A DNA stretch of 64,000 bases. It comes from Burkholderiales bacterium. Its GTDB lineage: Bacteria > Pseudomonadota > Gammaproteobacteria > Burkholderiales > Burkholderiaceae_D. The DNA is taken from NCBI GenBank assembly GCA_016200845.1, contig JACQDW010000046.1:1-64000 (forward strand), in the 5' to 3' direction. The notes below the pieces were generated by a model that saw nothing but the letters and a program-made list of their open reading frames with translations, was not told the DNA's origin and searched no databases. The position numbers and the translations under genes were made by a program. Shown one piece after another: positions 25,248-33,708 of the stretch; within the stretch, counting starts at the first letter, position 1; each line of letters starts with the position of its first letter.

Positions 25248-25295
25248 GAGATTTCTGTGGTGCAATGTTACCATGTATCAAGTTTCCAAATAAAT

Positions 25296-25398
25296 AGGAC
25301 TTACGCAAAATTGCGCTGGCTAGGCGTGGAGCCGAAGACAGTGCAATTGCACGGCGAGGCGAACACAACAACGCCAGCGTCTGTTTTGCGTAAGTCCT
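25296..25398 (+). repeat. Hairpin element copy 1: arms aggacttacgcaaaa/ttttgcgtaagtcct around a shared core
   Basis: Arms at 25296-25310 and 25384-25398; core at 25319-25371 matches the reverse complement of the 33.6 kb element. Confidence 0.85.
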
Positions 25399-25654
25399 AA
25401 TAAAAATGGATACTTATTTGGGGCGCCTCTTTATTTCACCTCAAATCTGAGGCATGTTTTCTTTACGCTTCTCACGAAAAATACCTCTTTAGTTTCACTC
25501 GGTCGGTCAAGTCACGAATTTCAATTTTCTCGTGTTTTTGTCGTCCAATAAAGCCCCACGATACGCATTTCAAATGATCAAAAAACAGATTTAAATGTGA
25601 ACGATAGTTCACTCCACGGTGTTTTCCCATAACTAGTAATTCACAAGTGAGTAA

Positions 25655-33594: not shown

Positions 33595-33602
33595 AGCTGA
33601 TT

Positions 33603-33698
33603 CCATTTCTAAATCATTCGTGTGGTTGTTACCTTCGGCTCGCCGTGCTATAGCACTGTCTTCGCCTCGTGGCCTAGACACGAATGATTTGGAAATGG
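33603..33698 (-). repeat. Hairpin element copy 2: arms ccatttctaaatcattcgtgt/acacgaatgatttggaaatgg around the shared core
   Basis: Arms at 33603-33623 and 33678-33698 (1 mismatch); core matches 25319-25371 in reverse complement. Confidence 0.85.
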
Positions 33699-33708
33699 CC
33701 CGAATACT

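Follow-up and report, generated by a model that had tools for sequence, protein, structure and literature searches.

Correia repeats (CREE, or nemis) have been known since the 1980s, and both the function of their core and their mover have been unsettled since discovery. Among other repeats, BOX in Streptococcus pneumoniae and ERIC in enterobacteria are small interspersed elements whose folded body is modular, while REP/REPIN sequences with their RAYT transposases and integron attC sites are conserved hairpins with unpaired positions; attC sites, REP sequences and IS200/IS605 ends are recognised as single-stranded DNA hairpins. The occurrence of Correia repeats is described as confined to Neisseria and their mobilising mechanism as undetermined, and their transcripts are bound and cleaved by RNase III (PMC2649163). 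BRE is presented, in the available part of its description, as an intergenic betaproteobacterial repeat of about 90 bp known from Bordetella, Polaromonas, Delftia and others, one published B. pertussis position being 3605317-3605401. Its copies stand in tandem in Bordetella and in Comamonadaceae, and the repeat is reported not to be co-oriented with the fork of replication (PMC3110155).

Judging by its sequence, the window analysed here, a 64-kb stretch of DNA taken as a whole, belongs to an Undibacterium (Oxalobacteraceae) whose draft genome measures 3.43 Mb; among named records that bear the core, Undibacterium species are the nearest. It contains two elements that are members of two distinct MITE families, A and B. 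Copy 1, from family A, extends from 25295 to 25399, one base beyond the limits given in the first-pass annotation at each end, and is flanked by a perfect 5-bp target-site duplication, ATAAA (25290-25294 and 25400-25404), that this annotation had overlooked. Its left terminal inverted repeat (TAGGACTTACGCAAAA, 25295-25310, + strand) and right repeat (25384-25399, - strand), both recognised from end matches across the genome, enclose an inner left arm that forms helix P1 (GCGCTGGC with its lead-in, 25311-25320, + strand) and that pairs and covaries with the inner right arm, P1' (25373-25383, + strand; covariation in other copies). Between the arms lies a conserved core of 52 nt (25321-25372, + strand), delimited by pattern matches, the covariance models R1 and R2 and pair counts, with the layout TAGGC-P2-GA-P3-GAAGACA-P4-nnnn-P4'-GGCGA-P3'-GAA-P2'-AACAAC. 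The 5' side of the inner internal loop, GMAGRCA (here GAAGACA, 25334-25340, + strand), is near-invariant except for two covarying positions, and the 3' side, GRCRA (here GGCGA, 25353-25357, + strand), shows non-Watson-Crick covariation with it. The family B element, identified from sequence and by BLASTN, occupies 33601-33700 on the - strand with ends TTCCATTTCYAAATCATTCGTGTC, the one at 33700 being decayed (GGCC in place of GGAA). Its TNA duplication reads TGA on the left (33598-33600) and, imperfectly, CGA on the right (33701-33703), and its core (33625-33676, - strand) is an exact match to the helix-free pattern described below (R2 E 5.5e-16).

When the 33.6-kb copy is reverse-complemented, the stretch of copy 1 from CTAGGC to AACAAC is identical to it at 43 of 53 positions without a gap, which confirms the earlier count, and BLASTN of one copy against the other gives an E value of 5.7e-8. 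All ten differences lie in helices P2 and P3 or in the apical loop, and none in the internal loops. The palindromic tips of both copies and the C..G to G..C swap between them, likewise noted earlier, were borne out, and the same swap recurs in many further copies. Run on the 64-kb window, R2 matched exactly these two cores (E 1e-22 for copy 1 and 5e-16 for the 33.6-kb copy). In each element, either strand folds much better than shuffled sequence: the z values of the folding energy are -8.0 and -7.4 in copy 1 and -6.0 and -4.8 in the 33.6-kb copy. Sigma-70 promoters and terminators near the window element are about as numerous as in shuffled sequence. No Rfam family reaches its gathering score over the element, whether in the window, in the long forms or in the further lineages tried, and a permissive Rfam search on the window element gave no match.

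The window elements have the features of MITEs: they are small and multicopy, lack a transposase gene, and carry terminal inverted repeats and a target duplication. The family A element is 105 bp long with 16-bp ends. The source genome contains at least 40 copies that match it well and share its ends, and the ends have 177 matches there with two mismatches or fewer in 3.43 Mb, and the ends occur in 40 of 44 congeneric genomes. An exact 5-bp duplication accompanies 23 of 79 copies, compared with none of 200 random pairings. Family B is also multicopy, with its own conserved arms and ends TTCCATTTCYAAATCATTCGTG, and its 3-bp TNA target duplication has match fractions of 0.66, 0.77 and 0.89 over 35 copies. 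In short form, the ends are TAGGACTTACGC in family A and TTCCATTTC in family B. Within each family the arms are therefore ordinary terminal inverted repeats, yet one core is found inside unrelated ends. The two duplication lengths imply two different transposition systems, although the core is identical in kind. The first-pass annotation had proposed that conservation is lower in the arms than in the core, which holds between families A and B but not within a family. It had also reckoned that shared fixed arms, together with a degenerate 33.6-kb outlier, would speak against its reading: the arms are indeed fixed, but the 33.6-kb copy belongs to a second multicopy family and so is not a degenerate outlier. 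The idea of locus-specific arms was dropped, as at least 40 copies of the source genome share the arms of copy 1.

No autonomous partner with the family ends was found in the draft genome itself, among the congener matches listed or in viral contigs; the plasmid collection gave no match to the element, and no core was found in viral contigs. A search for a strict empty site found the element beside ruvC in none of 19 congeners, with unalignable intergenic sequence in the eight compared; the only weak match among the 19 lies more than 600 bp from the ruvC match. The core shows no preferred orientation to flanking genes (40 versus 44).

Almost all of the copies that went into model R1 are from Undibacterium. 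Within the order the model has matches in 96 of 399 genomes and 50 of 158 genera, mostly with several copies per genome; elsewhere in the phylum it matches only a few genomes. A second model brings in multicopy element families from other families of Gammaproteobacteria, and the weaker of these element families have chiefly the outer loop in common with the core. The ends of the elements vary by lineage, and most elements with traceable ends are about 100-108 bp long. R1 also matches three Correia repeats (L244, L319 and L320; E 1e-10 to 7e-13) that end in TATAGTGGATTAA or a close variant. The first of these bears the TCAGGACAA core end reported for Correia repeats (PMC2649163), and neisserial uptake words adjoin L244 (GCCGTCTGAA) and L319. 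On the strength of these matches, the core is homologous to the Correia repeat core of Neisseria.

The window families resemble CREE further in comprising elements of about 105 bp and a longer class, in being non-coding and flanked by terminal inverted repeats, in reaching about 100 or more copies and in having a directional core; the characteristic CREE core is homologous to that of the window element, R1 matching neisserial copies at E 1e-10. CREE also have short deletion forms of 69-73 bp, and a 69-bp form occurs here (L114). CREE fall into size classes of 104-108 and 153-157 bp, whereas here 105 bp agrees with the shorter class and the long form, in family A, measures 183 bp and carries another added hairpin domain. 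CREE end in TATAGTGGATTAA (the 26-bp Correia repeat) and duplicate TA; in contrast, the window families end in TAGGACTTACGC or TTCCATTTC and duplicate 5 bp (A) or TNA (B). BRE, compared by description only, is likely the same family: the available part of its description reports a repeat of about 90 bp that is intergenic, tandem, Betaproteobacteria-wide and suspected of mobility (PMC3110155), and tandem arrays occur here in L100, L183 and L264. The fold, the terminal repeats and the link to CREE are absent from that part of the BRE description (PMC3110155). The likeness to BOX and ERIC is an analogy of body plan only, drawn from descriptions rather than from compared sequences. The attC boxes RYYYAAC ... 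GTTRRRY at the hairpin base are absent from the window elements, whose ends are those given above, and an attC identity was dropped; the DDE-type target duplications further distinguish the window elements from both REP/REPIN and attC. CREE and BRE are known in the literature searched, but no account was found there of a shared fold, exchanged ends or a fixed pst copy, and core words searched in paper texts gave only chance primer matches.

A helix-free pattern, in which only the loops are fixed, has 59 matches in the genome with three mismatches or fewer, compared with none for a control pattern. Among 60 diverse copies (set A1), 93.0% of helix cells are paired versus 78.5% after shuffling, and slid controls pair at 41% or less. 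In set A3 (104 copies from 45 genomes and 17 families), whose alignment was fitted to the covariance model and is hence biased to it, 94.6% of helix cells are paired versus 71.8% after shuffling, with 418 double-changed cells versus 108; all four Watson-Crick types are seen at many helix pairs in this set and the internal loops are invariant. Slid controls reached 47% at most across the fold tests. The Undibacterium and pstB-phoU ortholog sets were aligned without the covariance model and are free of its bias. All counts treat related copies as separate, so that the p-values carry no phylogenetic correction. For structural covariation, which the first-pass annotation had read from two copies, the support is strong within Undibacterium, over the 45 genomes and at the fixed orthologous locus. 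The covariation includes positions of the GMAGRCA/GRCRA loop: at one position A·G, C·A and A·A are seen and C·G never (Fisher p 8e-33, uncorrected for kinship), with A·G in nine families and C·A in 16, and at a second position A·G is exchanged with G·A. The set A·G, C·A and A·A is presumably compatible with a trans Hoogsteen/sugar-edge pair, which serves as a lead. A K-turn was considered and dropped because the spacing does not fit.

The core is also found at a fixed place. In one gammaproteobacterial family, taken from its sequences to be a candidate Pseudomonadaceae, 61 of 149 genomes have a core match, mostly as a single copy. At 13 of 31 inspected loci (L240, L243, L247-L249, L386-L388, L390-L393 and L396, at about 1489-1580) this single copy, with covarying arms, lies between pstB and phoU in constant orientation, the core strand being antisense to the operon; the PstB and PhoU genes were confirmed with NCBIfam models. 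The ortholog set shows both-side changes at 13 pairs and 96.4% of cells paired versus 86.4% after shuffling, the outermost arm pairs lying outside the search model. Read on the core strand, G·T occupies 33 cells, spread over nine pairs, versus one for A·C, and in the two copies tried this strand folds better than its complement. The asymmetry between G·T and A·C points to selection on the folded core strand; these copies are the best evidence for such selection, and this evidence is independent of transposition. The pstB-phoU copy is orthologous and possibly domesticated, and it provides a single-copy test case, accessible in harmless laboratory strains, in which the likely phenotype is phosphate control.

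The feature is probably a Correia-type MITE with a core that is selected for its fold, more likely than not as RNA. A transposase acting in trans, of the cut-and-paste, DDE type, would recognise the ends and duplicate 5 bp (A) or TNA (B), and the conserved hairpin core would have come to be joined to several unrelated transposon ends while being selected as the fold of one strand. This fold may act in RNA transcribed from promoters nearby or in the element itself; its long arms may be a substrate of the RNase III type, as has been reported of Correia repeats (PMC2649163), and its internal loops would bind a putative protein or shape the fold. The core would be carried by any transposase that recognises the ends it has at the time, and would occasionally be retained at a useful place, such as between pstB and phoU. 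The presence of the core in about 50 genera with exchangeable ends and compensatory changes makes the core the selected part, and an alignment over these genera is the basis needed for testing core selection. As to the level of selection, RNA is somewhat favoured, a single-stranded DNA hairpin is doubtful and selection at neither level more doubtful still. The strand asymmetry of G·T at the pst locus and the effects of RNase III on Correia transcripts (PMC2649163) argue for RNA; against it stand the scarcity of wobble in the core helices of the wider set (G·T 7, A·C 4) and the near equality of G·T and A·C in those of Undibacterium (28 versus 20), both untypical of functional RNAs, together with the lack of a preferred gene orientation and the antisense position of the folded strand at pstB-phoU. 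The joint reading is evenly balanced between being right and wrong: it holds that a conserved domain with a function as nucleic acid, most likely an RNA whose loops contain non-canonical pairs, is passed between unrelated transposon ends across beta- and gammaproteobacteria, that its many forms include Correia repeats and probably BRE, and that it was domesticated at pstB-phoU, in the phosphate operon, in one gammaproteobacterial family.

A structured RNA is likelier than a single-stranded DNA-hairpin element, which had also been proposed at the outset and found no direct support. Such an element, with a core recognised by a recombinase or Y1-type enzyme and terminal repeats that provide accessory movement, would fit the likeness to known single-stranded sites, seen in core helices that are almost purely Watson-Crick and keep certain positions unpaired, and it would suit the palindromic character of the elements over their whole length and the existence of tandem arrays. 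It is nevertheless unlikely, because the 5-bp and TNA duplications are DDE-type, the window elements have neither attC boxes nor a gene orientation bias, no partner gene was found in the sequences searched, and BRE is reported not to be co-oriented with the replication fork (PMC3110155).

The covariation might instead have arisen without selection, if replication or repair copies one hairpin arm onto the other. The transposase-binding ends, too, have matched double changes (11 same-change pairs among 53 copies of the source genome, versus 1.3 expected), which shows that some arm-to-arm copying or pair selection acts outside the core too, and such copying may account for part of the covariation. 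As the whole explanation it is decidedly unlikely: copying would erase the asymmetric internal loops, which are conserved, and it fits neither the non-Watson-Crick covariation with C·G avoided nor the G·T excess at the orthologous pst locus; moreover, paired changes outnumber single ones in the core helices (27 to 10), with the reverse in the terminal ends (11 to 45). The presence of both families in the same genus would agree with ordinary selfish MITEs, family B having taken the family A core by recent recombination with nothing selected, but the core occurs with many unrelated ends in 50 genera and at an orthologous position in one gammaproteobacterial family, which makes this account very improbable. 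Another early suggestion, an element that creates inverted repeats by duplicating the DNA beside it, would account for the different arms of the two window copies; with the same arms at 40 or more loci, the same ends in 40 of 44 congeneric genomes and fixed ends bordered by 5-bp or TNA target duplications, it is refuted for practical purposes.

Some family A copies carry an added 81-bp branched hairpin domain at one of two core sites (site 1 in L042, L043, L051, L058 and L112; site 2 in L056, L115, L117, L122 and L123). This domain comes in two versions related by compensatory changes, and a different domain is added in family B, at the tip. Several genomes contain tandem head-to-tail arrays of whole hairpin units with a spacing of 103-125 bp (L100:6051-6463, L183:900-1450, L180:950-1400, L091 and L264). 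Relatives of about 195 bp with family A ends and several added hairpins are present in two other Undibacterium genomes (L191-L193). Family A ends also surround a third, distant core with different inner arms (L116:102-205, L120:1-104, L227:2098-2201 and L228:1932-2035), two of these elements lying in IMG/VR viral contigs. In another viral contig (L225:1972-2072), TAGGACTTACGC-type ends about 101 bp apart flank an unrelated interior, which is possibly a different MITE with the same ends.
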